From positions 1 to 64,000 of IMG/VR virus record IMGVR_UViG_3300028920_000052: a DNA stretch of 64,000 bases. The stretch is one strand, 5' to 3'. Shown in pieces: positions 7,307 through 63,287 of the stretch. Both the position numbers and the translations under genes were made by a program. Within the stretch, counting starts at the first letter, position 1. Every line of letters begins with the position of its first letter. Source of the stretch: a virus. Below the pieces are notes generated by a model that searched no databases, was not told the origin of the DNA, and was given only the letters and a program-made list of their open reading frames with translations.

Positions 7307-7307
7307 T

Positions 7308-10300
7308 ATGAAATGTAGAATAACAGAAGCAGCAGATCCTAGATTAGTAGAGCTTATTGAAAAATATGGACAATCTAAGGGACTTGAAATATATGTGGAT
7401 GAAAAAGGTACTGGAATTCCTTATAAAGAGCCTTCTCCTGAAATAGAATCAGAGCCTGTATTTGTTCCTTATGAAAAAGCTATAGTTCATTTAAAAGGTC
7501 AATTAAGGCTGGAACAAAGAAGATTAGATGACTTAAAATCTAAAACTTCTGTTGAAGATAATCTTGAAAAAGCTAAATTGCATGAACATAGTAGAGAGTT
7601 AAAAGAAAAAATTGAAGAGTTGGAGAATTCCCAGGATTTAGATACTCTTATAAATATTGCTAATTTACAATTAGACTGGGTAGTTAGTTTATTTAATAAA
7701 GAAAATTTCCATCCTGCAGAATTAAATGAAGCTAAAAGAGTTATAGAGTTGTGGTATGATATTAAAACTATACTTTACGGTGAAGGAGTTGAAAGAGATG
7801 CTTTAGATGAAAGAGTGATTGAGAAATTTGATGCTTTAAGAGCTAGAATAGATTCTGAAGGTATAACAGATAGACTATTTAACATTAATGCAGAATTCTT
7901 AACTAAGCAGGCAGGTTATTTAAGTACTTCTGAATTTCTTAAAGAACTTTATAAATTAAAAGACTTGGATAAAGGTACAGAATTTGGTAGATGGCTAGGT
8001 GCTACAGGTACTAAATATCTGACTGTTCTGGATAAAATGAATAGAGATGCTGCTGTTAGAGTGGATCAAATAATGAAAAGTTGGAGTCAAAGAATTAAAG
8101 ATGTTTTGGCTCCTATTAAAAAAAGGGGATTAGAGAGCCTTTTATGGCAAGTAGATAAAGATGGGAACCCAACAGGTAATATGACTAATAGATATTCTCA
8201 AACTTGGTATGATGCTAGAAAGGCAGCGTATAATGCATTGAGAAAAAGTATAACTAATCCTAAATCTACTACTACTAGCAGAAACAACGCTTATAAAAAA
8301 CTAACTAAATTTCTTAAAGATAATACTGTTACTGTAGATATGAGGTATTTTATTGATAGTAAATACGAGTCTAGAGAGGGTGTTACTAAGGAAATGCACA
8401 TTGAATATCTTAAAGAGCAGTTTGGAGAGGTTAGAGCTAATGAAATTATAGAACAAGCAGCAGAGTCTTATCAAAAATATTTAGAGAATTTAGAAATAAT
8501 TAAGAGGCTTAATGAAGAAAAAGTAGAAACTGGAGAATTAAGTTCTGAACAGGCTACTATGATAGTATCAGAATGGGTAGATAAAAATAGTCCTATAGTT
8601 TGGTTAGAACAACAAGATGCTCCCATAGAAGGTCAAACAAAGAAATTTACTCAATCTACTTTTAATAGATTTGTTGTTAATAAACCTAAGAAAATAATTG
8701 AAGGTAAAAAAACTGAATGGTATGATGCTAACTATGAAAGAATAGAGAATGATAAAGAATTATTAGAAGCATACAATACTATAAGGGAATTTATGGATGA
8801 GATGATGTCTTATTTACCTCAACATATTAGATCAGATATACAAGCTAACTTCTTACCTAGAATAAAAAGAGAATTTGTTCTTGCTATGAATGCAGAAGGA
8901 CTTAAAGGTGCTGTAGCTGGATATGGTGAAGACTTTATTAATAGTATGACTTCTACGGCTGGAATGGAGAATAGATTTTTAGAAGAAAATGAGATAGGAC
9001 AATTATATAAAAGTATACCTACTAAATTTACATCTCCAATACCAGTGGATGAAAGAAGTAGAGATTTAGAAAAAATTCTTCCTATGTTTGGTACAATGGC
9101 TCTTAACTATAAGTATAAAAGTGAAGTACAGGATAGAACAGAATTAGCACATAAATTTCTGCAATCTATTGCTAAAAGTAAACAACGCAAAGAATATACT
9201 ACAAATGAATTAAATAATACTCTTGAAACTATAGAGTGGTTTATGGATTCTCAACTATTTGAGAAGACTAAAATGGATGAAGGGGTAACTAGCATTAAAA
9301 CCTTTAAAGGAAATACTTTTGAAATAGTTAATCAAGATAAAGCAGAAGAAATAGAAAAGGCTTTTAAAAAATTAAGAAAATCTAATGATGCTGATACTGC
9401 TGTTAGACTTCTCAAAGAGATGTTTGGGAATGATATAAAAGTAATGAAGGTTAAAGAAAGATATAAACAACTAGTAGAAAAAAGAGATGAGATTGAGGAT
9501 AAACTGTATAATGATGAAATTACTCAAGATGAATATGAGAAATTAATTAAACCTCTTGAAGATGAAGCTAACGGTCTTGGTAGAAACTTAGTAATGTCTA
9601 AAGTTGCAGATAAGTTAATGAGGTATAATCAGGCTATGGCATTTTGGTTTAACCCTTTCTCAGCATTTAATAACTATATGTTTGGTGTTCTATCGAATTT
9701 AACTTGGGCAGCAGGAAAAACAGATTTTAATCCAAAACAAACTATACAAGCTTTTGGATTAATGTGGAAATCTGCATTGAATTTAAAAGATGGTAAGTTG
9801 GATAAGGCTACCAATTTAATTGCTAAATTTAATCTTCTTTATGAAAATTTAGAGTATAACAGTTCAGATACACAAAATGAAACATTGAAGAAATTAAAGG
9901 CTTTTCCTTATGTACTACTTAGGAAAGGAGATTTATTTATCAAAGGGCAGACTATGATTTCTATTATGTTAAATAAAAAAGTTAATGTAGTTGAGAATGG
10001 TATAGAAAAAGAAATAAGTTTATGGGAAGCTTTTGATGATAGTGGTGAATGGAATGTGGAAAGATTTGGAGAAAATAAAGAATGGAGGGGAGATTGGACT
10101 AATCCTGAAGATAATAAAGCTTTTCTAGACTTTAATAGATATGTAAATAAGATAGAAATAAAGTTGCATGGTAACTTTGATCCTAATGCATCCCCAATGT
10201 ATAAAAAATATGTACTAACTAGAATGTTAGCACAATTTAGAGCAAGTTGGATGATAGAAGGTATTGCACAAAGATTTGAAAGTAGAAAATTTGATGATGA

Positions 10301-10826
10301 TTTGCAAAGAGAAGTTGAAGGAAGATACAGAACTTTTGGTAAACTGGGGTTTAAAAAGTCTTTTCAGGTATTAGGTAAATTAGTTGCTGGGCATTTTACT
10401 GGTAAAGTAGATTTAAATAATATTTCTGCTAAAGATAGAAATCTAGTATTGGAGAATATGAGAAGAAATCTTATGGAAATTTATCTCTACGCAGCAATGT
10501 TCTCAATATACTTATTATTAAAAGCAAGTATAGATGATGATGACGATAATGAAGATGCTAAAATGGCTCTAAATATGCTAAATAGAGTCATGGCTGACAC
10601 TACATTTTACCTAAGCCCTAAAACATTTATTGAAATCGTGAAAGATCCAATTCCAATTTTAGCAATTCCTATTAGAGCAACCAGAGGTTTTAATTCAGCA
10701 CTAGATCTAATATTTGAAGATCTAACAGAATCTGAGGAAGAACAAAAGTGGAGAAATATTACATCTAATTTTTATCTTATAAATCAATACAATAAGACAG
10801 TTAATATGAGAAATAAAGTATTTTAA
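7308..10826 (+). CDS. Giant probable virion protein downstream of the RNA polymerase
   Basis: This 1172-residue protein is predicted from ATG 7308, two bases after the stop of the polymerase gene. An in-frame GTG at 7299 would overlap that stop by 8 bases. The N-terminal third is charged and helical (about residues 40-110). Around residue 770-800 there is MAFWFNPFSAFNNYMFGVLSN, a hydrophobic stretch typical of late domains of large phage polyvalent proteins. Near residue 1050 comes MEIYLYAAMFSIYLLLKA, a probable membrane segment, followed by an acidic DDDDDNED run. No enzyme motif is visible. Position directly after the virion polymerase suggests a protein packaged and ejected with the DNA, perhaps inserting into the host envelope. 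Function is inferred from context only. Confidence 0.7.
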   Translation: MKCRITEAADPRLVELIEKYGQSKGLEIYVDEKGTGIPYKEPSPEIESEPVFVPYEKAIVHLKGQLRLEQRRLDDLKSKTSVEDNLEKAKLHEHSRELKEKIEELENSQDLDTLINIANLQLDWVVSLFNKENFHPAELNEAKRVIELWYDIKTILYGEGVERDALDERVIEKFDALRARIDSEGITDRLFNINAEFLTKQAGYLSTSEFLKELYKLKDLDKGTEFGRWLGATGTKYLTVLDKMNRDAAVRVDQIMKSWSQRIKDVLAPIKKRGLESLLWQVDKDGNPTGNMTNRYSQTWYDARKAAYNALRKSITNPKSTTTSRNNAYKKLTKFLKDNTVTVDMRYFIDSKYESREGVTKEMHIEYLKEQFGEVRANEIIEQAAESYQKYLENLEIIKRLNEEKVETGELSSEQATMIVSEWVDKNSPIVWLEQQDAPIEGQTKKFTQSTFNRFVVNKPKKIIEGKKTEWYDANYERIENDKELLEAYNTIREFMDEMMSYLPQHIRSDIQANFLPRIKREFVLAMNAEGLKGAVAGYGEDFINSMTSTAGMENRFLEENEIGQLYKSIPTKFTSPIPVDERSRDLEKILPMFGTMALNYKYKSEVQDRTELAHKFLQSIAKSKQRKEYTTNELNNTLETIEWFMDSQLFEKTKMDEGVTSIKTFKGNTFEIVNQDKAEEIEKAFKKLRKSNDADTAVRLLKEMFGNDIKVMKVKERYKQLVEKRDEIEDKLYNDEITQDEYEKLIKPLEDEANGLGRNLVMSKVADKLMRYNQAMAFWFNPFSAFNNYMFGVLSNLTWAAGKTDFNPKQTIQAFGLMWKSALNLKDGKLDKATNLIAKFNLLYENLEYNSSDTQNETLKKLKAFPYVLLRKGDLFIKGQTMISIMLNKKVNVVENGIEKEISLWEAFDDSGEWNVERFGENKEWRGDWTNPEDNKAFLDFNRYVNKIEIKLHGNFDPNASPMYKKYVLTRMLAQFRASWMIEGIAQRFESRKFDDDLQREVEGRYRTFGKLGFKKSFQVLGKLVAGHFTGKVDLNNISAKDRNLVLENMRRNLMEIYLYAAMFSIYLLLKASIDDDDDNEDAKMALNMLNRVMADTTFYLSPKTFIEIVKDPIPILAIPIRATRGFNSALDLIFEDLTESEEEQKWRNITSNFYLINQYNKTVNMRNKVF

Positions 10827-10828
10827 AT

Positions 10829-10857
10829 AAAAAGGGAGAACTTAATCTCCCTTTTTC
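10829..10857. terminator. Bidirectional terminator between convergent blocks
   Basis: The hairpin arms AAAAGGGAGA and TCTCCCTTTT are separated by ACTTAA and flanked by A and T runs, so it can work in both directions. It ends the plus-strand giant genes and also carries the stop codon of the convergent minus-strand gene. Confidence 0.85.
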
Positions 10858-11489
10858 TTTCTTATCCATTCTCTGGCAAAAAATATATAATTTTCCTCTG
10901 TATATTTAATATTTTCATAACTGAAGAAAATTTTAGCGTTTATTATAAAATCTAATAAGTCTTTTTTACTAAATTTAGGTTTATTTTCATTTATATATTT
11001 TTCTGCATCTTTTCTAAATTTAAAATGTTTTACATTTTTTCTAATATTACTATCACATACTAATCCTTGCCACATTTCAAAATTAAAATCTACGAACCAA
11101 AAAACATCTCTTTCAAATAATTCATTACCAAATTCATCTTTTAATAAAGGTTCTTTATAATGCTCAATCTTATGTATTCCAACATGTCCTGGGCCAACTA
11201 ACATATGCCTACCTTCACAATCTAAATAGAATTTTTCTATTGTAAATTTTTGTGTGGGGCATTTAGGATTATATACTTTATCTCCAAGTTTAAATTTTAC
11301 TCTATCAGGTAATCTCATAACTACTGTTCCTAATATTACCCAATTCTTTCCTTCAACTTTTTCCCAAAATTCTGGATAGTATTTAACATCTGCTGAAACA
11401 TCACATTCATTATCATACTTTAATATACAACCTAAATCAGGAGAACCTGGATATTCTTTTATAAGTTTGTACTTCAATTTGTTATTCAT
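10842..11489 (-). CDS. Hypothetical protein, last gene of the minus block
   Basis: This 215-residue protein is not recognised. It begins with YKLIKEYPGSPDLGCIL and a following YPEFWEKV, a phrase I associate with small modular phage proteins. Short beta-type segments with VKFKLGDKVY follow, and the C-terminus is basic (REWIRKKKGD). Its start overlaps the end of the upstream gene by 8 bases, so the two are probably translationally coupled. The last codons run into the bidirectional terminator. The modular style resembles the 710-residue protein at 27207-29339. Confidence 0.7.
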   Translation of the reverse strand: MNNKLKYKLIKEYPGSPDLGCILKYDNECDVSADVKYYPEFWEKVEGKNWVILGTVVMRLPDRVKFKLGDKVYNPKCPTQKFTIEKFYLDCEGRHMLVGPGHVGIHKIEHYKEPLLKDEFGNELFERDVFWFVDFNFEMWQGLVCDSNIRKNVKHFKFRKDAEKYINENKPKFSKKDLLDFIINAKIFFSYENIKYTEENYIFFAREWIRKKKGD

Positions 11490-13613: not shown

Positions 13614-14288
13614 TTATTTCTTGCTTTTTATTGCATCCATAAATAGTTTAAAAGAATAGTGTTTTCGTTCTAGAAACAACTCAGCATCTTTATATAAATA
13701 ACTGTATAATTTTATTAATTCTTTTCTATTGAAACATCTTAAATACCTTATATTATTTATGGTGTATTTACCTTTTTTATAATCATAAATGGTACTTTCA
13801 ATATCATTTATCTTAAATATATTCTTAATTTTAAAAAGAATATTATCTAATCCAATGATACCAAAAGTAGCCACTTTATTATTATATCTGGAATCTAAGC
13901 AAAACCAGCCATCTCCATCAAAAAATCCTCTAATATAATGAGAATAAAGAGTATCATCCAGCTCAGGAAAATTCAATGACTTAGTTTTGTACTGTGGACA
14001 TCCTGCATTTGCCAAAGATTTACTTAAAGTTTTCCGTGTAATAGTAAGTCTATATTGATTTTGTCTAGTAAAATCTTTAACATCATAAGTTAAGTTACCT
14101 TCGTATTTCAACTCAGTTTTTATTTTTAATAAAATGTCAACATCACGTTCCTGTAGATTAAGTACTATAGTACCTCTTTGTTCATTATTATACCCATCTG
14201 CACAAAACAACCCTAGAATATATGCTTTATTAGGAGTATCTATAACATCAAAATAATTTTCATCTACTAAATACTTTATTTTCCCCAT
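13614..14288 (-). CDS. Free-standing LAGLIDADG homing endonuclease
   Basis: This 224-residue protein has two LAGLIDADG helices: YILGLFCADGYN near residue 28 and YIRGFFDGDGWF near 119. The acidic residues at the end of each helix bind the catalytic metal, and two motifs in one chain imply a monomeric enzyme that cuts a long asymmetric site. I see no split gene around it, since UDG and the downstream gene are both intact, so it appears to be a free-standing mobile gene. A 22-base perfect palindrome sits just upstream of its start. Confidence 0.88.
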   Translation of the reverse strand: MGKIKYLVDENYFDVIDTPNKAYILGLFCADGYNNEQRGTIVLNLQERDVDILLKIKTELKYEGNLTYDVKDFTRQNQYRLTITRKTLSKSLANAGCPQYKTKSLNFPELDDTLYSHYIRGFFDGDGWFCLDSRYNNKVATFGIIGLDNILFKIKNIFKINDIESTIYDYKKGKYTINNIRYLRCFNRKELIKLYSYLYKDAELFLERKHYSFKLFMDAIKSKK

Positions 14289-36570: not shown

Positions 36571-37420
36571 CATTTTTGTTATCCTAAAGGCTCTTTATCC
36601 TTTAGTTCTATAGGTTCTTCATTTCCTATAGTTCGGACTATATCATTAATATTTAAATAATTTATAATATTTTCTGTAAAAATGTATAATTGTTCTATAG
36701 TTGCAGAATTTTTCATAGTATTGGCTAAAGTACTTATAACTTTAACATTCCCTTGTATATATCCTTTAGTATTATCAATTCTATCTAAAGATGGTGAATT
36801 TTGATAATTTCCTTTTGTACCTGTAAATAAAGGTATTTTCAGAATTGGGCATATTTCAGGAATTACTATATCATCTAATGTTATATCAAAAAGAATATCT
36901 TTTTTCAATGCACGTATTTGGGCATTTTTTAATAAACGCTTAGCCACATATCTAGGATATCTTTCTCGTTGTTTATTATTTACATTTTCCCGTATAATAC
37001 TGTCGTCCATTCTATCTTTATAATACTTGCGCTTATTAATATTAACTTTTTCTTTATTTTCACGTCTGTATTTATTTAAATATGCTTTACGTGAGTTATT
37101 ATAACATTTTTTGCAACAAGACATATACGATATTTTACCTTTATATTCACCAACTTTATAAAAATCAATTAAAGGCTTAATTTCGCTACATTTTTTACAT
37201 TTTTTCATAGTATCTACATTAGTTTATTTACTAATGTAAATATAATAAAATTATTTGAATATTATTCCATTTTCGTGGGAAAAATATACTCCTATAATTT
37301 ATAGGTATCATTTCCTAGTCTCTGCACCTTCAAAAATATTACTATTTAAGCTTGGCTCAAGATTGGCATCTCAGCTTTCCTTGAATTTATGGAATTTAGA
37401 CAGGGCACAATTTAGCATCT
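36571..37420 (-). other. Group I intron 2 in the DNA polymerase gene (with HNH gene)
   Basis: This 850-base intron interrupts the codons for PIQG|TNGDIIKR. The 5' exon ends in T (GGT) and the intron ends in G, the group I rule. The core is visible on the minus strand: TTGAGCCAAGC (37350-37360), GGTGCAGAGACTAGG (37314-37328) and GATATAGTCC (within 36626-36644), where GACTA and TAGTC form P7. The HNH gene covers the 3' part of the core. Confidence 0.85.
36579..37208 (-). CDS. HNH homing endonuclease inside intron 2
   Basis: This 209-residue protein has a Cys-rich N-terminus (CKKC, CCKKC, zinc-binding) and a helical basic linker. The HNH core is CPILKIPLF then SPSLDRIDNTKGYIQGNVKVIS and LANTMK. 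This arrangement, a zinc region followed by HNH, is common in phage intron endonucleases. It should nick or cut intronless polymerase genes and spread the intron. It ends 8 bases before the 3' splice site, so its last codons overlap intron core sequence. Confidence 0.88.
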   Translation of the reverse strand: MKKCKKCSEIKPLIDFYKVGEYKGKISYMSCCKKCYNNSRKAYLNKYRRENKEKVNINKRKYYKDRMDDSIIRENVNNKQRERYPRYVAKRLLKNAQIRALKKDILFDITLDDIVIPEICPILKIPLFTGTKGNYQNSPSLDRIDNTKGYIQGNVKVISTLANTMKNSATIEQLYIFTENIINYLNINDIVRTIGNEEPIELKDKEPLG

Positions 37421-37912
37421 ACCCTGTATCGGACTATTTTTACTTTTTCTTTCAATACTACCTAAAGATTTATAATCTTCTTTATTTAAAGAAAGATTTT
37501 TATAATTTTTAAAATAAGATTTCCACTCAGGAAAATATCTTAGTCTTCTATATGGAGCACCTGTTCTAATATATCCTCTTGTTTTACCTAATTCTCCTAA
37601 ATGCACTAGAAATGAATATACTTGTGATACTCTAGAAAAGAAGGTTTTAATAAGTTTTTTAGCATCATCTACTGATACTTGTATTGTATCTGCTAACTTA
37701 TATTCTGACATTCCAAAAGCCAATCCAAAATTTATAGTCTTTTGTACATCTCTGTATGTAAATGTAGGTTTTGGTGGAAATGGTTTTTTTACATCCTTTA
37801 TAGGAATATTAAATGTCATTGCACATAGTTTAGAGTGCAAATCTTCCCCGTTCTTAAACGCATTAACCCAGGTTGGATCTTGGCTGAATTCTGCTATAAT
37901 TCTGAGTTCCAT
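37421..37912 (-). CDS. polA: DNA polymerase I family, exon 2 (motif A end, motif B)
   Basis: This 164-residue exon starts MELRIIAEFSQDP, completing the motif A region, and carries motif B, RDVQKTINFGLAFGM. There Arg and Lys bind incoming dNTP, and the usual Tyr of FGLIYGM is Phe. It ends SKNSPIQG, cut just before the last palm segment. In-frame stops lie directly upstream and downstream in the introns. Confidence 0.88.
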
Positions 37913-38878
37913 CAACAGGTTTTCTTCCTGCTGGACTTTATCTTAACCATATACAATTATATTGTACTTAGGTAATCTCCGTTAAGTCTCTACACCTTCC
38001 TTATTTCACACAAGGCTTGGCTCGGTATTCCCAACGCTGGTTCACCGAATTTGAAGATTTTGTACTTTAAATGTTTCCAAATAAAGAGGCATATAATCTG
38101 TTATATTTTCTTTCTAGATAAACAGATGCGTTTTTGTATATTAAATTATATAAAGAAGCTATGTCTTTTTTAGAATATATTCCTATTATGTAAATACTAT
38201 CTTTTCTACAAGAAACTGTACAATGAATATTATTTTGGGTAAACCACTCTACAAGTTGATTCTTAAATTCTACAGATTGGGTAGCAATTTCAGTCCTACC
38301 AGTAGTTTTTCTAATAAACCCATCTCCATCTATTACTCCTCTAATAAAAGAAGGTGATAGTGAAATATTCATTTTAATAGTTTTACTTTTTCTGGGAGTT
38401 ATTCCAAGATTTCTCAAGAATAAATTACAAGATTTATTTTTGAATACGACTCTATATTCAATAGAATTAAACTTTTTACTAAAAACTGTTCTTATAGGTA
38501 CCTTTGAAAATTTTGAATACTTTTTTATATGTTCTAAATCTTTTTCTTGTAATCCTAAAGATACTACATATTCTTTATCTCCTATAGTTCCATCAGAAGC
38601 AAGCATACCTAACCAATATTGCACTTCTTCATTTTCTAAATCTAAAAATGGATTAAGTACTTTACTTTGAGCTTCTGATTGATTTCTTGGAATTATTCTA
38701 TTTCTTAATAATATTCTTCTAATAGTAGTATTATAAGTTTTTAACTCTAAAGCTAATTGTTTCGTAGTCTTACCCTGTAAATATTCTTTAACTATTTGTT
38801 CTTCATTATATTTTAACATACGTATAATTATTGATTCGGCAATATATACCACAATAATCATACCAATTTTTATCTTCT
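37913..38878 (-). other. Group I intron 1 in the DNA polymerase gene (with LAGLIDADG gene)
   Basis: This 966-base intron separates GGDYSG from MELRII. The upstream exon ends in GGT and the intron ends in G, as group I introns require. Visible minus-strand core: CGAGCCAAGCC (near 38014-38024), GGTGTAGAGACTTAACGG (37979-37996) and TTAAGATAAAGTCC (37933-37946), where GACTT and AAGTC can form P7. The core lies 3' of the endonuclease gene. The spliced reading gives DYSGMELR, matching the T7-like DASGLELR. Confidence 0.88.
38067..38819 (-). CDS. LAGLIDADG homing endonuclease inside intron 1
   Basis: From ATG 38819 this is a 250-residue protein. An N-terminal helix-turn-helix-like segment (EEQIVKEYLQGKTTKQLALEL) is followed by YWLGMLASDGTIG near residue 70 and FIRGVIDGDGFIRK near 163, the paired LAGLIDADG helices. 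A start at 38861 is possible but lies almost at the 5' splice site. It should drive intron homing into polymerase genes lacking the intron. It is different from the HNH enzyme of intron 2, so the introns arrived separately. Confidence 0.88.
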   Translation of the reverse strand: MLKYNEEQIVKEYLQGKTTKQLALELKTYNTTIRRILLRNRIIPRNQSEAQSKVLNPFLDLENEEVQYWLGMLASDGTIGDKEYVVSLGLQEKDLEHIKKYSKFSKVPIRTVFSKKFNSIEYRVVFKNKSCNLFLRNLGITPRKSKTIKMNISLSPSFIRGVIDGDGFIRKTTGRTEIATQSVEFKNQLVEWFTQNNIHCTVSCRKDSIYIIGIYSKKDIASLYNLIYKNASVYLERKYNRLYASLFGNI

Positions 38879-40060
38879 ACCGCTGTAGTCTCCACCAACA
38901 ATTTTATATCCTTCTCTAGGTATAAAAGCACTTCTAATTTCTTTACCAAATTCTCCATGTGAAGGGATTTGATTTAGGTTAGGTTCTGATACTGAGATTC
39001 TTCCAGTTGCCAATATTTGCCATACATTATAATGAACTCTTTTAGTAACAGAATTTATATGTTTTAAAAAGTTCATACCAAAAGCATCAGCAAGTTTATT
39101 ATGTTTACTGTAATTTATTAATAGGGAAACTAATGAATGGCTAAACTTATTTTTTTGCAGTATTCTATCTCCTACAGAGTCAATTTTTAATCCTAATTCT
39201 CTTAATATTTCTAATTTCTGTTGATTTGACTTCCAATTTATGTAAGTATCTCTTTCTGTATTATCAAAGAAAAGATTTCCTTGTTTATATATTGTACAAT
39301 ATTTAGTTAAAGCATTAGTATTCGGTAAATCTTTAGTACCTAATTTATAAATTAAAGTATCCATTTCTTTTTCTACATCATCTCTAATTTTTGAAGCTTT
39401 AATTGCAACATTTTTCCATTTATCAGTGTCTACTCTAATCCCAGTGTACTCCATCCTAGCAAATACTTTTACTACTTCATTTTCTAAATTTAATGTGTTT
39501 TCTAACCCTAAAGTTTTTATTTTTGGCAATTGTAAGTCTTTGATTTTACCTAAATACTTTACATCATTACATCCATAAACTATTACTCTATCTGATAATC
39601 CTTCAGAATGTATTTTTCCTCTTATTTCTTTATCTAATTCAACATTAAGGTACTTCTTTGCTATACCTTTTAAACTTACATCTCTTTCTTCATCTGAATA
39701 TCCAGTAGTTAGAATGCATTCAGCAAGAAATGTATCATAAATATTTTCTACAACTAGATTATTATGATAAAGAAATTTTAAATCAAATTTTGCGTTTTGA
39801 AATAAAAATAACTTAGACTTATCTGCAAATAAAGGTATAAAAACTGAAGAATCTATACTACTCCAATCAATAAAAAATTGATTATCATAATCTCCTAATT
39901 GTAAAGATATTACTCTTTTAGTATAAGGGTCAAATCCTTCAGTTTCTGTATCTACTCCTATTTCTTTTAAACTATTACAATATTCAAGACAATCTTGAAT
40001 ACTTGCTAGTTTTATATCTTCATTTTCAATTCTTTTTTGATTACTGACTAAGTATATCAT
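38879..40060 (-). CDS. polA: DNA polymerase I family, exon 1 (proofreading exonuclease and start of polymerase)
   Basis: This 394-residue exon begins the replicative polymerase of the phage. The 3'-5' exonuclease shows GVDTETEGFDPY (Exo I), FQNAKFDLKFL (Exo II) and VIVYGCNDVKYLG (Exo III), so proofreading looks intact. The polymerase part follows, with TGRISVSEPNLNQIPSHGEFG and the first half of motif A (VGGDYSG), where intron 1 interrupts. Joined with exons 2 and 3 it gives about 637 residues in one phase, a normal size for crAss-like PolA. There is no 5' nuclease domain; the separate gene at 16376 can supply that. Its ATG overlaps the previous stop (ATGA). Confidence 0.9.
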
Positions 40061-53691: not shown

Positions 53692-54232
53692 TTTTGAGGT
53701 AGAAATATCTCCAGAAGTATTAACTATTGACAAGTTTAAAACTATTGTTAATAGGGATAAAAATAAAAATAAAAGTAAAGCCATAAAGGAGTTATCTTTA
53801 ATATATCTATATGTAGATGTTAGATCTGACTATATGTATATAACAGATGAAGAACAGAGGCTAGAAGAGATTAAACATGACTTAGATTTACCTAAAGATT
53901 GGAAGATAGATAAAACATTAGAAGAAGCTATAAATTTATACAAAGAGAGGTCAATTACTGTAAATTCTGCTTTATACAAAGGAGCATTAGTAGCAGCAAA
54001 TGCTGTTAATGAAGTTTGTATGAAGGCTAAGGAACATATTAAAAATGCAGAAGACCCTATTACAGCAGCCCAGAAAATAACAGGTATTTTAGAAAAGATA
54101 CCTAAAGCAATGGCTAACTTATCTGCAGCATATCAAGAATTAATTAAAGAACAGAGAATAACAGAAGGTAGAAGTAAGGGAAGTAGAGTATTCAACATGT
54201 ACGAGGACGGACTAGATGATAAAGATGAATAA
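53663..54232 (+). CDS. Terminase small subunit candidate
   Basis: This 189-residue helical protein ends DGLDDKDE. It contains KSKAIKELSLIYLYVDVRSDY near 38-58, which recurs next to terminase in related phages, and a long helical C-terminal half (LVAANAVNEVCMKAKEHIK). It overlaps TerL by 17 bases. Position and size favour a small terminase subunit or a packaging adaptor, but I see no DNA-binding motif. Confidence 0.5.
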   Translation: MNLFQFNKSSFEVEISPEVLTIDKFKTIVNRDKNKNKSKAIKELSLIYLYVDVRSDYMYITDEEQRLEEIKHDLDLPKDWKIDKTLEEAINLYKERSITVNSALYKGALVAANAVNEVCMKAKEHIKNAEDPITAAQKITGILEKIPKAMANLSAAYQELIKEQRITEGRSKGSRVFNMYEDGLDDKDE

Positions 54233-56525
54233 ATATCAAACAGTATTTACAGAAGAAGATTTTAAAAATTTGCCTAGAGAGATACGTAGTGAATACTATG
54301 AAGCTCTTTCTACCATAAAATTTGTTAAATGGTTAATAGAACCAGAAGAGGTTAGAGGATTTGCTAAGAATAGAAAAAGGTGGGATAACCCTAATGATTT
54401 AGAATATAGAAAAGAAGATCCCAATGGTAGAATTTGGGTGGATTTATCAAAGCCTCATATTTTAGAAGACTTAGATTTTTTTAGAGAAAGGGCTTTATTT
54501 TTTAACAAATATAAAAAATACACAGGTATTCCTCCTAATCCAAATCCTAAATCTGCATATGCTGCATTTTGGAGAGAGGAACTAAGAAGATGGAGGTATG
54601 GACTTGTTAGACCCTCTGATGGAGAATGGATACCTGGAGGATTATACTTTTATTGGAACTATTCTCCTATATGGTTAACAAAGAGTGATGACAAAGCAAA
54701 AAGAAAAGGTAAGAGCAGGGGAACAAGAATAAGAGCTTTTCCTCATCCTTGGTTAGGAGATTATTTATTCTATCATTATAAAGAACAAGCTAGAGATAAT
54801 GGACAGCATGGAAAAGTACTTAAAGCTAGAGGTATGGGTATTAGTTTTAAGATGGGTTCAGAATCTCCACGTAATATGTATGTTTATCCAGGATCAGGTA
54901 ATCCAAACTTCCATTTAGCTTCTGATAAGACTTTTCTTACAGGGGATAAAGGTGTATTTGGTAAAGCTATAGATACTTTAGACTGGGTAGCTGAGCATAC
55001 GCCATTGCCTAAATTAAGATTAACTGACAGTAAGCAGAAGATGGAAATACAGTTAGGATATTTAGATGAATACGGTGGTAGGAAAGGGCTGCTTTCAAGT
55101 GTATATGGTATATCTTTAAAAGATAATCCAGATAAAGCTAGAGGTATTAGGGGACCTTTAATACATTATGAAGAAGATGGATTATTTCCTCATCTTGAAG
55201 ATGCCTGGAATATAAATAGGAAAGCTGTTGAAGATGGAGATACTGTATATGGCATTATGCTTGCTTTAGGCACTGGAGGAGTTGAAGGTAGTGATTTTGC
55301 TGGTTCTGAAAAGTTATTTTATAATCCAAGTGTATATAATATATATGGTATTCCAAATGTATTTGATAAAAATGCTAATGGAGAATCCCTGTGTGGATTT
55401 TTTTGGGGTTCCTATCTAAATAGAAATGGTTGTTATGATTTAAATACAGGAGAACCAGATGTTACTAAAGCAATCTTTGATATTCTACAGGATAGATATC
55501 TTGTAAAAAAAGGTGCTGCAGATGCTAGAGCAATAACTCAGAAAAAAGCAGAAGAGCCTTTGACACCACAAGATAGCATAATGAGAGTAGAAGGTAGTAT
55601 ATTTCCCATATCAGATTTAAAAGATTGGTTGGCTGACATTACTCCTAACATACAACGATTTATATCTCCTCACTATGTAGGAACTCTTAATGTGAATTCT
55701 TCTGGAGAAGTTGATATAAATGTTTCTGAAAATTGTTATCCTATAAGGGAATATCCTGCTATAGACAATAAATTAGGAGCTGTAGAAATATTTGAACTTC
55801 CTAGTAAAGTTACTGATCCTTTTAGATATATTTTAGGTACGGATACGTATGATGATGATGATGTAAGTTATTCTGACTCATTAGGTAGTGTGTTTGTATT
55901 TGATAGATGGACTAGAAGAATAGTTGCTGAATATACAGGTAGACCACAAACAGCTAATGAATTTTATGAAATAGTGTATAGACTTGCCTTATTTTATAAT
56001 GGTACAATAATGTACGAGAATAATAAAAAAGGATTATATGCTTACTTTGCTAATGTTAAAAAGGCTTTACATTTATTAGCAGATACACCTAAAATTATTA
56101 CAGATAAACAAGTATTTAAAGCAAGAAGTGAGATGAGTAATACCTCTAAAGGTATTAATGCTACTACAGCTTTAAATGCTTATGGAAGAAGATTACAAGC
56201 AGACTGGCAAGTTGAAGAAGCTTATGATGAAAGTAATAAAAATGTTGCAATGGATGAGGAAGCTGAGAAGCCTCCTTTTATACCTAATCTTCGTAAAATA
56301 AGAAGTATTGGATATATAAAAGAATGCATAGCGTGGAATTCTGATATAAATACTGACAGAGTTTCTGCTATGAACATGGTAATGATATATGATATAGAAC
56401 TTACTGAATATGGTACTAATAAATCTAGAGAAAGAGTAAAAACTTTAGCTGATGATCCTTTCTTTAATAGGTTTGGTAAGAATGTTGAAAAGACTTCTTT
56501 AGCAATGAAAGGTTGGAATATTTAA
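54216..56525 (+). CDS. terL: Terminase large subunit
   Basis: This 769-residue protein has a Walker A-like loop KARGMGISFKMG around residue 203-214, Walker B LIHYEEDGL around 314, and the nuclease segment ILGTDTYDDDDVSY around 537-550 whose Asp residues bind metal. MNKYQTVF at 54225 is a second possible start. The enzyme cuts concatemers and pumps DNA into the procapsid through the portal. The large size and the long N-terminal part are usual for crAss-like TerL. Confidence 0.88.
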   Translation: MIKMNKYQTVFTEEDFKNLPREIRSEYYEALSTIKFVKWLIEPEEVRGFAKNRKRWDNPNDLEYRKEDPNGRIWVDLSKPHILEDLDFFRERALFFNKYKKYTGIPPNPNPKSAYAAFWREELRRWRYGLVRPSDGEWIPGGLYFYWNYSPIWLTKSDDKAKRKGKSRGTRIRAFPHPWLGDYLFYHYKEQARDNGQHGKVLKARGMGISFKMGSESPRNMYVYPGSGNPNFHLASDKTFLTGDKGVFGKAIDTLDWVAEHTPLPKLRLTDSKQKMEIQLGYLDEYGGRKGLLSSVYGISLKDNPDKARGIRGPLIHYEEDGLFPHLEDAWNINRKAVEDGDTVYGIMLALGTGGVEGSDFAGSEKLFYNPSVYNIYGIPNVFDKNANGESLCGFFWGSYLNRNGCYDLNTGEPDVTKAIFDILQDRYLVKKGAADARAITQKKAEEPLTPQDSIMRVEGSIFPISDLKDWLADITPNIQRFISPHYVGTLNVNSSGEVDINVSENCYPIREYPAIDNKLGAVEIFELPSKVTDPFRYILGTDTYDDDDVSYSDSLGSVFVFDRWTRRIVAEYTGRPQTANEFYEIVYRLALFYNGTIMYENNKKGLYAYFANVKKALHLLADTPKIITDKQVFKARSEMSNTSKGINATTALNAYGRRLQADWQVEEAYDESNKNVAMDEEAEKPPFIPNLRKIRSIGYIKECIAWNSDINTDRVSAMNMVMIYDIELTEYGTNKSRERVKTLADDPFFNRFGKNVEKTSLAMKGWNI

Positions 56526-56598: not shown

Positions 56599-59121
56599 AT
56601 GAGTACATTTGGGATTAACCCTACATATTTTCCAGCACAAAAGAAACTTGAGTCAGAAAAAACAGAAAAATGGTTTAAAGAGTGTATTGATGTTGGAGTT
56701 GGAGTATGTCAATGGGGACAAAATAGTGTTAGAACAGCAAATGTAAGATCATCTAGAAAGAACAAAATTTCTAATTATAATCTTATAAATGATATAGTTG
56801 ATCCTACTGAAGTTGAAAGAGTAGTCAATCCTTATAAAATTCAAAATGAGGATTTTCCAAATAATTACAAAAACTACCCTTTAATAAATCCAGCAATAAA
56901 TTTACTATCTGGAGAGGAAAGAAAAAGAATATTTACTCCTATGGTGTCTGTAATCAATAGTGATGCTGTTACTAGTAAGTTACAGCAAATTGATGAAAAG
57001 TTTACAGACTTTGCAATGCAGAAAATTACTGCTAAAGGATTTGATGAAGAGAAAATAAAACAAGAAATAGCTGATTTTGAGAAGTGGAGGAAGTACACTT
57101 TTAAAGATAAGAAGGAGAGAATGGGTAATCAAGTACTTAAGTATTTGTATTATACTCAAGATCTAGCAGAGGAGTTTAGCAGAGGATTTGCAGATATGCT
57201 TATTGCTGCAGAAGAAATATATGTAATAGAGATTGTTGGTGGAGAACCTATAATGAGAAAAGGTAATCCTCTTAATTTCTATACTATGAGAAGTGGTAGT
57301 TCTTGGAAGATTGAAGATAGTGATGTTATTGTAGAAGATGTATTTATGCCTATAGGTAAGATAATTGATAGATACCACGACAGTCTTACTCCTAATCAAA
57401 TAAAATTTTTAGAGAATGGGCATCGTACACAAACTTCTTCTGGCTCAACTATGTTCTCTAATCAGATCACAACAGGTATAGATGTGAATTCTATTATACC
57501 AGATGTTGAGCTGGTAGAAGATTGGAATAATATAGTAGGACAGTATAATGGAGCATTTGATCCTGAAGGTAATGTTAGGGTAACTAGAGTACTTTGGAGA
57601 GGAATGCGTAAGATAGGCTTTATTACTAACTATGATGAATTTGGAGAAATGGTAAAAGATATAGTTCCAGAACAATACAAACCTAATAAAGAAATTGGAG
57701 AAGAAGTTAAATGGGAATGGATTAGTGAGTGGTATGAAGGTACTAGAATAGCTGGTGAAATAGATGTTAATACTCGTCCATGTGAAATTCAGATGAGGCA
57801 TAGAGATAATCCTTCAATTTGTAGTCCTGGTATTGTAGGTACTGTATTTAATGTAAACAGCAATGTTGGTAGAAGTTTAGTAGATGAGGCAAAAGATTTA
57901 CAATTCCTATTCAATTTATTCATGTATAGATTAGAATTAGCCTTTACTAAATATAAAGGTAAGATAGGTAAATTGCCTTTACACCTTATTCCAGATGGCT
58001 GGACTATTGATAAATGGCTATATTATGCAGAATACTTAGGGTGGGCTGTAGTTGATGCTTTTAATGAATCACAGAAAGCCGCATTTAGAGGTAAACCTGC
58101 AGGACTAATGAATGAGAGTTCTCCAGTAATAGATCTTGAAATGGGTAACTATATACAGAACCATTTGATAATGCTAGATTTTATTGAGAAAAGGTTAGAT
58201 AATCTTACAGGAATAACTCCTCAACGTAAAGGTGCTATAGATAATAGAGAGACTGTAGGCGGAGTAGAAAGATCTGTTATGCAATCTAGCCATATTACTG
58301 AGAAGTGGTTTAGTGTACATGATAATACTAGGAAACGTGCGTTAAGAGCATTACTTGAAGCAGCTAAAATAGCTTGGAAAGATAAATCTTTTGTTAAAGA
58401 ATTTGTATTAGATACAGGAACTAGAGAAATATTAGAGTTTGAATACAATGAGTTTATAGAAGCTACTTATGGTGTAGATGTTACTAACAGTTCTAATGAT
58501 ATGCAAACACTGCAAGCACTTAGATCTTTAGGTGAAAGGTTCTTACAGAATAATGGCTCATTATCTATTGTAGCTGAACTTTACAGAACTGGTAATGTTG
58601 GAGATATGCAACGTAAGATTGAAACTTATGAAGAAAACTTACAAAAAGCTGAGCAAGAAAGAATCCAACAAGAACAGCAGTTACAACAGCAACAGATACA
58701 GGCTGCTCAAGAAACTGAAGCTCAAAGAGTACAAATGCAGCATGACTTAGAGATTGAGAAGCTGGATAGAGAAGATATGAATAAACAACTTGATAGAGAA
58801 AATAAAATATATCTAGAAGAGATTAAGGCTATGTCATATGATCCAGAAAAAGATGTTGATAATGATGGTATTCCAGATGTTTTAGAACAGGGTAAATTAG
58901 CTTTAGAAAATACTAGAGTTTCTTTTGAACACGGTATTAAAGAAAAGGAGTTAACTTCTAAGCAAGATCTAGAAAGAAAGAAGATTGCTTTGGAAGAGAG
59001 AAAGTTAGAAGCAGCTAAAGAATTACAGAAACAAAAAGATAAAGCTGCTATGGAAAGAGAGCAATTAAAAGCTAAAACTGCTCTTAAAAATAAAGTTGCA
59101 GGAGAAAGTAAAAGAAAATAA
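56599..59121 (+). CDS. Portal protein
   Basis: This 840-residue protein follows TerL, as the portal does in crAss-like phages. Features include NPAINLLSGEERKRIFTP (near 99), LVDEAKDLQFLFNLFMYR and ITPQRKGAIDNRETVGG with VMQSSHITEKWF near 555-575, segments typical of large portal proteins. The C-terminal 150 residues are Gln/Lys/Glu-rich coiled coil. They include DVDNDGIPDVLE (D752, D754, D756), an EF-hand-like calcium-binding pattern. It would form the dodecameric ring for DNA passage. Confidence 0.82.
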   Translation: MSTFGINPTYFPAQKKLESEKTEKWFKECIDVGVGVCQWGQNSVRTANVRSSRKNKISNYNLINDIVDPTEVERVVNPYKIQNEDFPNNYKNYPLINPAINLLSGEERKRIFTPMVSVINSDAVTSKLQQIDEKFTDFAMQKITAKGFDEEKIKQEIADFEKWRKYTFKDKKERMGNQVLKYLYYTQDLAEEFSRGFADMLIAAEEIYVIEIVGGEPIMRKGNPLNFYTMRSGSSWKIEDSDVIVEDVFMPIGKIIDRYHDSLTPNQIKFLENGHRTQTSSGSTMFSNQITTGIDVNSIIPDVELVEDWNNIVGQYNGAFDPEGNVRVTRVLWRGMRKIGFITNYDEFGEMVKDIVPEQYKPNKEIGEEVKWEWISEWYEGTRIAGEIDVNTRPCEIQMRHRDNPSICSPGIVGTVFNVNSNVGRSLVDEAKDLQFLFNLFMYRLELAFTKYKGKIGKLPLHLIPDGWTIDKWLYYAEYLGWAVVDAFNESQKAAFRGKPAGLMNESSPVIDLEMGNYIQNHLIMLDFIEKRLDNLTGITPQRKGAIDNRETVGGVERSVMQSSHITEKWFSVHDNTRKRALRALLEAAKIAWKDKSFVKEFVLDTGTREILEFEYNEFIEATYGVDVTNSSNDMQTLQALRSLGERFLQNNGSLSIVAELYRTGNVGDMQRKIETYEENLQKAEQERIQQEQQLQQQQIQAAQETEAQRVQMQHDLEIEKLDREDMNKQLDRENKIYLEEIKAMSYDPEKDVDNDGIPDVLEQGKLALENTRVSFEHGIKEKELTSKQDLERKKIALEERKLEAAKELQKQKDKAAMEREQLKAKTALKNKVAGESKRK

Positions 59122-59123
59122 TT

Positions 59124-59753
59124 ATGAGACCTTGGCTACAAATACCTACTAAAACTAGGATGGGATTGTTGAGGGAGTATAAGAAGATGGGGTATTCTTA
59201 TAATCAAGCTATTAATGATTTTGAAACTAGTTTACCTAAGTATGAAGAAGGAGGAGAAATAGAAAAACCTCAAACATCTGAAACTTTTTCTAATTTAGCA
59301 CAAAATTTAGGTACTTATTTTTTGAATACTCCTCATACTGGTAGAATAAAAGCAACTTATTCCCCAACAGTAAGTATAAATAAAAATGCTGAGTATTATA
59401 CCTATCCTAATTTAAAAAATGATGTTTTAAAAGATTTAAAAAGTGATATAACTGTAGAAAATATAAATACACAGCAAAATAATTTTAAAATGCAAAAAGA
59501 AGAATATGCTCCACAGTACATAAAAAATAAAACATTTGAAGAATATTATAATTATTTAAACAATTCTCCTAAAAGTGGAAGACTTCAAGGTAGTTCTATA
59601 AACTTAGGTAAATATAAAGTTTCTGCAGGAAAAGATGAAAAAGGTAGATATATTTCTATATACGATAAATATGATTGGAACTTACTTGAACAGTTAGGGG
59701 TTAAAGGTAATTCTTGGGAGATATATGATAGAATATATGAAAATGAATTTTAA
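59124..59753 (+). CDS. Hypothetical structural protein, 209 residues
   Basis: This protein begins MRPWLQIPTKTRMGLLREYK and has YEEGGEIEKPQ near 40, a Gly-Gly spacer typical of phage proteins that attach to virion parts. The rest is Asn/Tyr/Lys-rich with little structure. It lies 2 bases after the portal gene, so a virion or assembly role is likely. The family is not recognised. Confidence 0.6.
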   Translation: MRPWLQIPTKTRMGLLREYKKMGYSYNQAINDFETSLPKYEEGGEIEKPQTSETFSNLAQNLGTYFLNTPHTGRIKATYSPTVSINKNAEYYTYPNLKNDVLKDLKSDITVENINTQQNNFKMQKEEYAPQYIKNKTFEEYYNYLNNSPKSGRLQGSSINLGKYKVSAGKDEKGRYISIYDKYDWNLLEQLGVKGNSWEIYDRIYENEF

Positions 59754-59760
59754 ATAGCCT

Positions 59761-59955
59761 ATGTGGATATCTTTACAAAATGGGCCTGTTAATTTTGATT
59801 TGATATTGAGATATTATATAGAAGGTAAAGTACTTACCTTAGTGACAATAAATAAAGACTATGTTCCTTTCTTTTATGCATCTGAAGAGAAAGTAAAAAG
59901 AGTTAAAACATTTTTAGACAAAACTTTAAATTATATAAATGATGAAGAGAATTAG
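59761..59955 (+). CDS. Small hypothetical protein
   Basis: This 64-residue protein begins MWISLQNGPVNFDLILRYYI, beta then helix, ending NYINDEEN. It overlaps the ferritin gene by 17 bases. Function is unknown. Confidence 0.6.
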   Translation: MWISLQNGPVNFDLILRYYIEGKVLTLVTINKDYVPFFYASEEKVKRVKTFLDKTLNYINDEEN

Positions 59956-60436
59956 TGATAAGATACACATGGCTTTGAAGGCTCAGTTAAAAAATGAGTT
60001 GGATAGTTCAAGGTTATATCTTGCTATGAGTCAATGGTTAGAATTTAATGGCTGGTTTGGAGCAGCTAAACTGTGGAAAAAATATGCTGATGAAGAATTA
60101 GTACATGTAGATAGGTTTTACAAGTACATGCAAGATAGAAATGCTATGCCTTGTACACCTGTTGCAAAAGAACAGCCTACAGAATTCAAAGGAATAAAAG
60201 AAATTGTTATTGCTAGTTATGAACATGAAGTACAAGTGAGTAATTGGATTAGAGATATAGCATTAGCAGCTTTAAATGAAAAAGATTTACATACCTATGA
60301 CTTTATGATGGAGTTAATTAGAGAACAGACAGAAGAAGAAGCTAAAACTTTATATTGGGTAGATAGAGTAGAAATGTTAGAACAGCAAAATGTATCCTTA
60401 TTTTTCTTAGATAAGGAATTTAGTAAAGGGGCTTAA
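59939..60436 (+). CDS. Ferritin with complete ferroxidase centre
   Basis: This 165-residue protein is a full-length ferritin of the FtnA type. The four-helix motifs appear in order: NELDSSRLYLAMSQWLE, YADEELVHVDRFY, SYEHEVQVS and REQTEEEAK. The ferroxidase ligands of E. coli FtnA (E17, E50, H53, E94, Q127, E130) align as E20, E53, H56, E97, Q130 and E133, all shifted by three. It should oxidise Fe(II) and store iron in a 24-subunit shell. It lies between portal and scaffold genes, an unusual place. MKRISD at the second codon could also start it. Confidence 0.9.
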   Translation: MMKRISDKIHMALKAQLKNELDSSRLYLAMSQWLEFNGWFGAAKLWKKYADEELVHVDRFYKYMQDRNAMPCTPVAKEQPTEFKGIKEIVIASYEHEVQVSNWIRDIALAALNEKDLHTYDFMMELIREQTEEEAKTLYWVDRVEMLEQQNVSLFFLDKEFSKGA

Positions 60437-60529: not shown

Positions 60530-61744
60530 ATGAGCAAAACAAATGATGAAAGTAAAGGACTGTTAGGAGAAGTTGATTTTGGGGATCTTATTGAGCCTCA
60601 TTCATCTATAGCAGCCGATGAAGAATTTCCTAGTATGGGAAATGATTTTTTTGAACAACCAGCATTTCAAGATATAGATGCTGGTACTGATGCAGATAGT
60701 TCTTTGACAGATGATATTGAGTTAGATCTGGATAAAGAGGATAAGAAGAAAGTTGAGAAGAAAGTTGAGACTACCAAGGAAAACTTGGAAGATGATACTG
60801 AAACAGAAAAAACACCTCCTTCTCACGATGATGCTGAGTCCAACTCTCAGCTTGCTCTTGTCTTTGCCAGGTTTCTAAGTGAGAAGGGGGTTATTTCTGA
60901 TGTTAATGAAGATGAGTTCAAAGAGTACGTAAAAGAAAATGGAGATGATGCTGGTCTTGAATATCTATATAATACAGAGGTTGAGACTAGAGTTGAATCT
61001 ATTAAAAGTATGTATGAACAAGATGTTAAAGACTATATAGAGTTTAGAGATGCTGGTATTTCACCAGAAACTGCAAAAACTCTAAGTTTCTCTAAAAGTA
61101 AATTTGAAAGTATTACTGAAGATGATTTAGAAGAAAATGAAGATTTAAGAAAAGAAGTATTGGAACAACATTTAAAAAATACTACTAAATTTACTAAAGA
61201 AGAGATTGAAGATACAATAGATTCTATGGTTGCTACAGGTAAAGATGCTACTAAAGCTAAAACAGCTTTAAAAGCAATTAATCTTTATAATAAGGAACAG
61301 GTAGAATTAGAGAAGAAAAAGATTAAAGAATCTGAAGAAATACAGTTAAAACAACAAGAAGATAATATTAATAAGTTTAAGGCTGCTATCTATGAAAAGA
61401 AAGAGATACTTGGTCAAACTGTTAATAAGCAAACTCTTCAGAAGATAGAGAAATTTTTACTAAACCCTGCAGAAAAAGATCCTAATGGTAATCCTGTAGA
61501 TGGTATTACAGCATGGTTTATGAAAGATCCTGTTAATGCTAGAATTAAATTAGCATATGGTATTATGACAGGACTACTTGATGGTAAGATTGATAATTTG
61601 AAAACTAAGGCTAAATCAGCAACTATCAAGGATATTGAAGCTGCTCTTAATGGTAAGGGTGGTATGTTAGATGGACAGTCAGATAGAGGTGGTGAGAAGG
61701 GAGAAGGTTTATCAGCTCTCAAATCAGCATTTAGACTAGATTAA
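60530..61744 (+). CDS. Scaffold-like acidic protein
   Basis: From ATG 60530 this is a 404-residue protein just before the major capsid gene. The first 100 residues are acidic and disordered (DIELDLDKEDKKKVEKKVE). A long helical part follows (KEQVELEKKKIKESEEIQL), and a Gly-rich region (GKGGMLDGQSDRGGEKG) precedes the end. Acidic, helical proteins in this position are typically capsid scaffolds. A start at 60500 overlaps the promoter, so it is less likely. Confidence 0.7.
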   Translation: MSKTNDESKGLLGEVDFGDLIEPHSSIAADEEFPSMGNDFFEQPAFQDIDAGTDADSSLTDDIELDLDKEDKKKVEKKVETTKENLEDDTETEKTPPSHDDAESNSQLALVFARFLSEKGVISDVNEDEFKEYVKENGDDAGLEYLYNTEVETRVESIKSMYEQDVKDYIEFRDAGISPETAKTLSFSKSKFESITEDDLEENEDLRKEVLEQHLKNTTKFTKEEIEDTIDSMVATGKDATKAKTALKAINLYNKEQVELEKKKIKESEEIQLKQQEDNINKFKAAIYEKKEILGQTVNKQTLQKIEKFLLNPAEKDPNGNPVDGITAWFMKDPVNARIKLAYGIMTGLLDGKIDNLKTKAKSATIKDIEAALNGKGGMLDGQSDRGGEKGEGLSALKSAFRLD

Positions 61745-61784: not shown

Positions 61785-63287
61785 ATGAGTGTTAAAATGT
61801 CAAAACTCCAAATTCTAGATCCTTCATACTGGGGAAAACTTACCAGAGAAGAGCATTTAGGTTGGATGGGTATGCAAGACCCTCAGTGGATTTCTAAATT
61901 CATTGATAGGGTATATGAAGTGAACTATGGGGCTGATAATATCGTGTCTTTTATTGACAGGTTCCCATTAAGGTATCTTGATGATGATACTCCTTTCCGT
62001 TGGGCTTTACAAGGTTCAGAAGAAAGGAATATACAACTTATTGCTGCTACTGTAAGTGCCAGTCCTACTGGTACACAAATTACAGATTCTACACAAGCAG
62101 GACTAGGTTTTGGTGAATTTTATATGTGGTTTGCTGAAGATTTCTTTAGTGCAACTTCTGTAATGGTAGGTCATCACCCTGAAAAGTATTCAGTGCGTGT
62201 AATGACTGATGCAATACAAGCTGGTGGATACTATGGTTATAGGTGTCAATTAGTAACTGGAGATCCTACTAAGTATATTGATGGAGACGAAGTTGCTGCT
62301 GGTACACTGTGGTCAGAAGAATATGGATTAGTTGAACAGACACTTTCTGTTCGTGGTAATGAACCTAAACATGCTAGTCACTTTGTAATGGAGAATACTT
62401 TCTCTATGATTCGTAAGAATTATGAAGTTCCTGGTAATATGATTCGTAAAGGTAAAGTTGCTCCTCTAGCTTTCAAATTTCTAGATCAGAATGGTAAAGA
62501 GCATGCTGCTTGGATTTCTAAACTTGAGTGGGATTTCTTAACTCAATTCCGTAGGGATAAAGCACGTTTACTTCTGGGTGGTAAATCCACTAAAATGGAT
62601 GATGGTAACTATTCACTGAAAGGTGAAAGTGGTAATGTTATCAAAGCTGGGTTTGGATTGTATGAGCAAATGGAAGGTTCTAATCTTCTTTTCTACAATG
62701 ACTTTTCACTGAAGGCTATTACTGACTTTGCTATGGATATTTCTGTAGGTAAAGTACCTGAAGACAAAAGGATGCTAGTTCTTTCTACTGGTGAATATGG
62801 TGCATATCAAGTTCATACTGCTTTAGCAGAAAGAGGTGGAGAAATTCCTTGGCTACGTAGTGATCATAACCTTGCAAAAATTGAAGGTAATAAGATGAAA
62901 CTTGCAGAAGGACAATTTATTGAGTATGAATTTATCAACGGAATTAAGTTTAAGTTGATGATTGACCCAATGAAAGATGATCCTGTACGTAATAAGATTC
63001 GTCACCCTAATGGAGGTTTGGCTAGTTCTTATATTTATGATATTTGGGACTTTGGTACAACTAACGGTAAAGCTAATATTCAAAGAGTAGCTGTAAAAGG
63101 AGATGAAGAAATCTACAGGTTTATTCCTGGAATGCGTGACCAGTTCACAGCATATAACAATCTTTCAGCTCCTGCTGCTACTTCTTCTTTGAAGGATGGA
63201 TACGTAGTTGGTAAAATGTATCAAGGCGCAATTCAATTGAACAATCCTCTTAAGGCTGGTAGGATTATTCCTACTATCTTACGATAG
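61785..63287 (+). CDS. Major capsid protein, HK97-type fold
   Basis: This 500-residue protein follows the scaffold gene. It has SKLQILDPSYWGKLTREEHL at the start, IVSFIDRFPLRYLDDDTPFRW near 50-70, and QLVTGDPTKYIDGDEVA. It is large and rich in Gly, Asn and beta-strand patterns, as expected for crAss-like capsid proteins. It ends in TAG, showing that TAG is a true stop here. It should form the icosahedral shell. A second Met at residue 5 could also start it. Confidence 0.85.
   Translation: MSVKMSKLQILDPSYWGKLTREEHLGWMGMQDPQWISKFIDRVYEVNYGADNIVSFIDRFPLRYLDDDTPFRWALQGSEERNIQLIAATVSASPTGTQITDSTQAGLGFGEFYMWFAEDFFSATSVMVGHHPEKYSVRVMTDAIQAGGYYGYRCQLVTGDPTKYIDGDEVAAGTLWSEEYGLVEQTLSVRGNEPKHASHFVMENTFSMIRKNYEVPGNMIRKGKVAPLAFKFLDQNGKEHAAWISKLEWDFLTQFRRDKARLLLGGKSTKMDDGNYSLKGESGNVIKAGFGLYEQMEGSNLLFYNDFSLKAITDFAMDISVGKVPEDKRMLVLSTGEYGAYQVHTALAERGGEIPWLRSDHNLAKIEGNKMKLAEGQFIEYEFINGIKFKLMIDPMKDDPVRNKIRHPNGGLASSYIYDIWDFGTTNGKANIQRVAVKGDEEIYRFIPGMRDQFTAYNNLSAPAATSSLKDGYVVGKMYQGAIQLNNPLKAGRIIPTILR

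Follow-up and report, generated by a model that had tools for sequence, protein, structure and literature searches.

Here, we report that a crAss-like phage carries, within its structural gene block, what is likely a genuine ferritin of the FtnA type known from bacteria, with predicted ferroxidase activity. The gene lies in a 64,000-nucleotide stretch of viral DNA that we analyzed (hereafter the window), which is part of a 97,595-bp virus record. The best reading of its role, which we consider probable, is that of a ferroxidase cage made late in infection that would clear Fe2+ and peroxide from the surroundings of newly made phage DNA. This reading is based on several computed lines of evidence: the fold and metal ligands of the protein, purifying selection, a clade of viral copies, the placement of the gene, a slot swap with a Dps-like protein in a sister lineage, and an N-terminal tag shared by the two.

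The ferritin gene (59939-60436, + strand) is an uninterrupted reading frame of 165 aa from an ATG start to a TAA stop. Its product matches the Pfam Ferritin family (PF00210) with 87.8 bits, well above the curated cut-off of 24.5, and matches E. coli-type FtnA structures with an E value of ~1e-22, its nearest solved structures being FtnA-type ferritins from E. coli, V. cholerae, T. maritima, and P. furiosus. An earlier note on this DNA had claimed that all six FtnA ferroxidase ligands are present at a constant offset of three, and the alignment confirms it: E17, E50, H53, E94, Q127, and E130 of FtnA correspond to E20, E53, H56, E97, Q130, and E133 in the window protein (+3 for all six). In the same alignment, Tyr24 of FtnA falls on Y27, and the site C glutamates E49/E126/E129 fall on E52/E129/E132. 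Structure prediction, one of the checks proposed in that note, strengthens the assignment. The AF2 model (mean pLDDT 96.6) is a five-helix ferritin fold with helices at residues 7-36, 40-66, 86-113, 117-149, and 155-164, i.e., a four-helix bundle followed by a short fifth helix, and its best PDB fold matches are exclusively bacterial or archaeal ferritins (TM ~0.9, mostly 30-37% identity). The protein scores 87.5 bits against NF007638, the NCBIfam equivalog model for E. coli FtnA, which requires 178 bits; by this model, it is to be regarded as an FtnA homologue rather than an equivalog. It lacks the inter-subunit motif of Dps (H-x11-H-x14-D-x3-E in helices A-B) and carries instead the intra-subunit ligands of FtnA.

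As for the surroundings, the + strand order is TerL (54216-56525, phrog_6681), portal (56599-59121, phrog_6547), a 209-aa ORF (59124-59753), a 64-aa ORF (59761-59955), ferritin, probable scaffold (60533-61744), and MCP (61785-63287). The TerL and portal matches, together with the match of the MCP to PF23898 (374 bits), identify a crAss-like phage. The ferritin had been described as sitting between the portal and scaffold genes; there is indeed a portal gene upstream and an MCP gene downstream, but the 209-aa and 64-aa ORFs intervene. The 209-aa ORF was not found in the corresponding slots of relatives. The 64-aa ORF overlaps the start of the ferritin gene by 17 bp and is possibly coupled to it in translation; a homologue (33% identity, E 7e-10) directly precedes the ferritin gene in the related contig L010. 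The 64-aa product is a possible partner of the ferritin. The scaffold gene is conserved in place across relatives, but it owes its name to its position between portal and MCP, no family or PDB match having been found for it. More generally, the neighbors of the ferritin gave no useful PDB matches, and a scan for sigma-70-like promoters and terminators gave nothing above shuffled sequence. An opposite-strand block of the window contains the replication genes PolA, helicase, UDG, and 5'-3' exonuclease. Within it, DNA polymerase A (37412-40060, - strand) seems split: 38870-40060 encodes the exonuclease together with a portion of the polymerase domain, and next comes a LAGLIDADG ORF (38067-38861), an arrangement likely to reflect an intein or intron. 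A second LAGLIDADG ORF is found at 13614-14288.

While the window ferritin as a single query found no relative in the contig search, an alignment-based query did, and a search with five viral ferritin copies yielded 44 IMG/VR contigs encoding relatives. Nearly all sampled viral copies share their contig with a capsid or portal gene of crAss-like type. Each of these two genes was found in 41 of the 47 records searched, all but two of which had been picked for carrying ferritin, and in none of 14 control genomes. The order portal, ferritin, scaffold, MCP recurs in the window and in L002, L010, L011, L013, L016, and L017, with ferritin identities of 68% (L010), 62% (L011), and 49% (L002). In L017, an extra 233-aa ORF, with a distant match in L131, lies between ferritin and scaffold. 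In L002, the terminase large subunit (4015-7404, 1129 aa) is interrupted by ~350 aa (5082-6133) that separate its two matching halves, and this insert resembles an intein.

We next considered whether the gene might be passenger host DNA or the product of an assembly chimera, an objection raised in the earlier note and encouraged by the fact that the ferritin is the sole cellular-type gene in the block. This we regard as refuted, its residual probability being close to nil: independent contigs (at least seven) share the same gene order, the viral copies form one clade of their own, and ferritin and portal have diverged together, their distances being correlated with a Mantel r of 0.83 overall (0.86 in the window's group and 0.65 in the other group). 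The intact ORF, its Pfam score, and the viral clade thus uphold the earlier claim that a phage-encoded ferritin resides among the structural genes of a crAss-like phage.

The viral clade was seen in two trees. In the first, which included 37 viral copies and 44 cellular or cellular-type sequences, all viral copies fall on one side of a branch with support of 100/100. Because flavobacterial-type sequences might have been under-sampled, we used the viral profile as a query against 395 Bacteroidia genomes and added the 30 best-scoring ferritins. In this enlarged tree, which answers the proposal that phylogeny against Bacteroidetes ferritins be examined, 41 viral copies, distant members included, still lie on one side of a branch (100/99). 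Some rows in the tree (L016, L274, and L275) are long. The viral ferritins are therefore one clade apart from all sampled cellular ferritins, with the viral sampling confined to patterns built from this family, so that phages with unrelated ferritins would escape it. The clade sits on a long branch, and the trees do not indicate the cellular source of the gene; no close source was found in the 395 Bacteroidia genomes, where the best profile score was ~155 bits, compared with 240-281 bits for viral copies of a second crAss-like lineage. Four unverified gut "Bacteriophage sp." scaffolds (MT836766, MT838721, MT839617, and MT838998; L006-L009) have ferritins that group with cellular ones. These scaffolds are possibly bacterial DNA, so annotations of ferritin in viral sets from the gut should be treated with caution.

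Ferritin also appears to have moved between crAss-like lineages. L110 is an exception to the correlated divergence of ferritin and portal: its ferritin (3088-3612), which occupies the portal-scaffold position, is 67% identical to those of the second lineage, while its crAss-like portal is a different one that reaches no more than 33% identity with the other portals compared. We read this pattern as transfer of the ferritin.

Within the viral clade, the gene is under purifying selection, with dN/dS of 0.014-0.159 in 11 pairs, and there is accordingly no sign of the decayed copies in relatives that would have spoken against a functional gene. The six ferroxidase ligands and Y24 are invariant in all 44 full-length viral copies, down to ~30% identity, and so are E49 and E126 (FtnA numbering); site C as a whole is invariant save for one Glu that is Asp in two copies. 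Across 34 diverse copies, the invariant columns include every ferroxidase ligand. This conservation bears on the idea that the protein is a repurposed structural cage that has lost iron handling. The long viral branch and the place between portal and scaffold genes would suit such a cage, but retention of the ferroxidase ligands, Y24, and E49/E126 at these levels of divergence makes it very improbable.

The presence of the gene is patchy. Among 38 relatives in which both borders of the portal-scaffold slot are visible, three (L180, L183, and L184) have ferritin in it, and in the other 35 the gap is just 9-117 bp. Two of these 35 contigs carry ferritin elsewhere: on one (L173, on the L005 contig), it is flanked by ORFs of 3326 aa and 1374 aa with matches to the giant ORFs of the window at 2-10826, and on the other (L176, on the L015 contig), it lies between two long ORFs. 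In the second crAss-like lineage, 9 of 50 contigs have ferritin. Ferritin is thus an accessory gene of crAss-like phages and, being missing from most relatives, is not essential; its status as a core crAss gene was rejected on the same grounds. Two further members of the viral clade (L102, 10001-10489; L103, 5065-5553) have neighbors mostly on the opposite strand, on contigs in which no crAss capsid or portal was found. These may belong to another phage group, or the structural part may be missing.

In the second lineage, ferritin lies between c1 (~233 aa), which is homologous to the "virion structural protein" phrog_29507, and c6 (~450 aa), a late gene. Both borders of this slot are visible in 33 contigs, where it holds ferritin in 9, another protein in 22, and neither in 2. 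The other protein (141-172 aa) is DUF5856/phrog_858, labeled as a "starvation-inducible transcriptional regulator." Its profile matches Dps-family structures (HP-NAP, E 8e-5; MrgA, E 3e-4), and the 50 best hits of its model (pLDDT 81.8) are all, or almost all, Dps or other ferritin-family folds, although these matches are modest (TM 0.45-0.66, E 0.007-0.04). The Dps spacing H-x11-H-x14-D-x3-E is invariant (H48, H60, D75, and E79), and the position of Dps D47 is N or G. Given these structure matches, the model fold, the invariant spacing, and the substitution at D47, the slot protein is best called Dps-like. Sequence homology between ferritin and DUF5856 was not detectable (hhalign probability 1.3). 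The Dps-like protein is absent from all 17 ferritin-bearing second-lineage contigs tested by us, but strict mutual exclusion had to be rejected since L122 has both in tandem (Dps-like at 10455-10925). No Dps-like protein was found in the window's own genome or lineage. The regulator label is attached to DUF5856/phrog_858 in many phages (phiR1-37 and Enterobacter T4-like phages), and the family, which looks Dps-type, is probably misnamed.

The two slot proteins share a short N-terminal tag of the type [LIVMFY]-x-R-[P/S/T/D/N..] within the first 14 residues. It is present in 23 of 25 distinct ferritins of the second lineage, which have a basic N-terminal extension, and in 20 of 20 Dps-like proteins, but in just 7 of 330 other ORFs of those loci, one of the seven being the L122 Dps-like protein. 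The corresponding Fisher value of 7e-28 is descriptive, because the motif was chosen after the sequences had been seen. Across 80 loci (L194-L273), 40 of 761 ORFs have the tag, about nine in ten of them ferritin or Dps-like. Some tags are nearly identical on the two folds, as in MEKPRILKRPE (ferritin, L232) and MEKPRMLKRDT (Dps-like, L250), and the slot proteins of L122 begin with MQKIVRP and MQKIPRP. In some ferritin/Dps-like pairs, the tag codons are mostly identical in DNA with little similarity upstream; the sharing could therefore stem from recombination with a junction immediately downstream of the tag, and this is the sober alternative to independent selection. The window ferritin has just MMKR ahead of its first helix, without a long extension, and the argument from the tag therefore has no direct bearing on it.

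What might this ferritin do? In the reading that we favor, crAss-like phages acquired the gene, probably in a single event, and it was then handed from lineage to lineage as an accessory gene of the late class. In the crAss-like records examined, its neighbors on the same strand are late/structural genes, which makes expression during head assembly and filling probable. The protein would be expected to assemble into the usual 24-subunit cage, in which the conserved di-iron site would use O2 or H2O2 to oxidize Fe2+, the iron then being stored as a ferric mineral. The likeliest benefit would be that Fe2+ and peroxide are cleared from the vicinity of phage DNA, both replicated and packaged, so that less Fenton damage occurs in late infection and perhaps also within the particle. 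That a Dps-like protein with the same tag takes the slot in the sister lineage suggests that the two proteins share a function, the handling of iron and peroxide near DNA, as well as a destination. The earlier suggestion of a functional ferritin owned by the phage fits these results well, whereas starvation of the host and an iron store for late enzymes found no specific support.

The same observations suit a cytoplasmic, host-support metabolic gene less well. Such a protein would act as host FtnA does, buffering iron released by breakdown of host proteins or supplying iron to enzymes of phage and host, with its late-operon position being incidental. It would be of ordinary FtnA type with a full ferroxidase site and site C, as observed, and the patchy presence and varying insertion site between lineages would also be expected of it. 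However, ferritin is placed in late/structural blocks in the crAss-like records examined, it is swapped with a Dps-like protein and not with other metabolic genes, and a partial scan of 20 window proteins revealed no iron-dependent enzyme. We therefore hold this reading to be possible but less likely than not.

Whether the virion contains the ferritin, or its Dps-like replacement in the sister lineage, is a further matter. Addressed to the particle by its N-terminus or by contact with portal or head, the protein could protect packaged DNA or be ejected into the next host, a plausible reading to which we give somewhat less than an even chance. It is consistent with the position of the gene inside the head/portal block, beside the phrog_29507 homologue, or between giant late ORFs, and with the presence of one tag on two unrelated folds in one slot. 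In addition, g280 of phiR1-37, a homologue of the Dps-like protein (31% identity over 114 aa), is annotated as a "phage structural protein," and gp217 of the Vi01-like phage Sajous1, a predicted ferritin, was detected by mass spectrometry of the phage (PMC10892097). However, nearness to structural genes is not incorporation, the window copy is without the long tag, and a recombination joint after the tag could account for its sharing. We put forward only tentatively the broader idea of an interchangeable crAss-like slot for an iron-oxidizing cage (ferritin, Dps-like, or both), with a common N-terminal peptide addressing head or particle; if true, the virion would carry its own iron/peroxide scavenger.

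A viral ferritin clade under strong selection, located in late gene blocks and swapped with a Dps-like protein bearing the same tag, would add iron/peroxide control to the assembly of crAss-like phages, which are very abundant. Our findings suggest that iron-handling cages are used late in crAss-like infection, possibly inside the particle, and this one protein family offers a direct test of whether phage particles contain iron, a long-standing question. They also suggest that the widespread phage family DUF5856 is a Dps-like iron protein despite its annotation as a "transcriptional regulator."

A survey of ferritins by Bai in 2015 reportedly included viruses. As the earlier note had supposed, no described role of ferritin in crAss-like phages was found in the literature searched, nor was a publication on a crAss-like phage ferritin or Dps-like gene, subscription literature being mostly outside the search. 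Phage-borne iron/peroxide proteins of the ferritin superfamily have been published for "Gratiaviridae" (Dps and Mn-catalase; Benler 2021, PMC8008677) and for Lactobacillus phages (Dps-like proteins, with genes near replication genes; PMC6669764). These are Dps or catalase, not FtnA, and the accessible parts of both papers describe no slot swap or common tag. Sajous1 gp217 also has a predicted ferritin fold, but it comes from an unrelated phage group and was called by structure threading, the FtnA ligands not being described in the text available. For K02217 ferritins annotated in gut viral OTUs (PMC10098016), the accessible portion gives no phage group, placement, or phylogeny. DUF5856/phrog_858 fills the ferritin slot in sister phages and has no detectable sequence kinship to ferritin. 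Among the closest known systems are the bacterial nonheme FtnA proteins of E. coli and V. cholerae and the ferritins of T. maritima and P. furiosus, with which the viral proteins have in common the five-helix fold, the six ligands, site C, and Tyr24. In contrast to these, the viral copies form a separate clade in a phage late-gene context, with a basic N-terminal extension in the second lineage, and the window protein scores far below the NCBIfam FtnA equivalog level (~87 of 178 bits).
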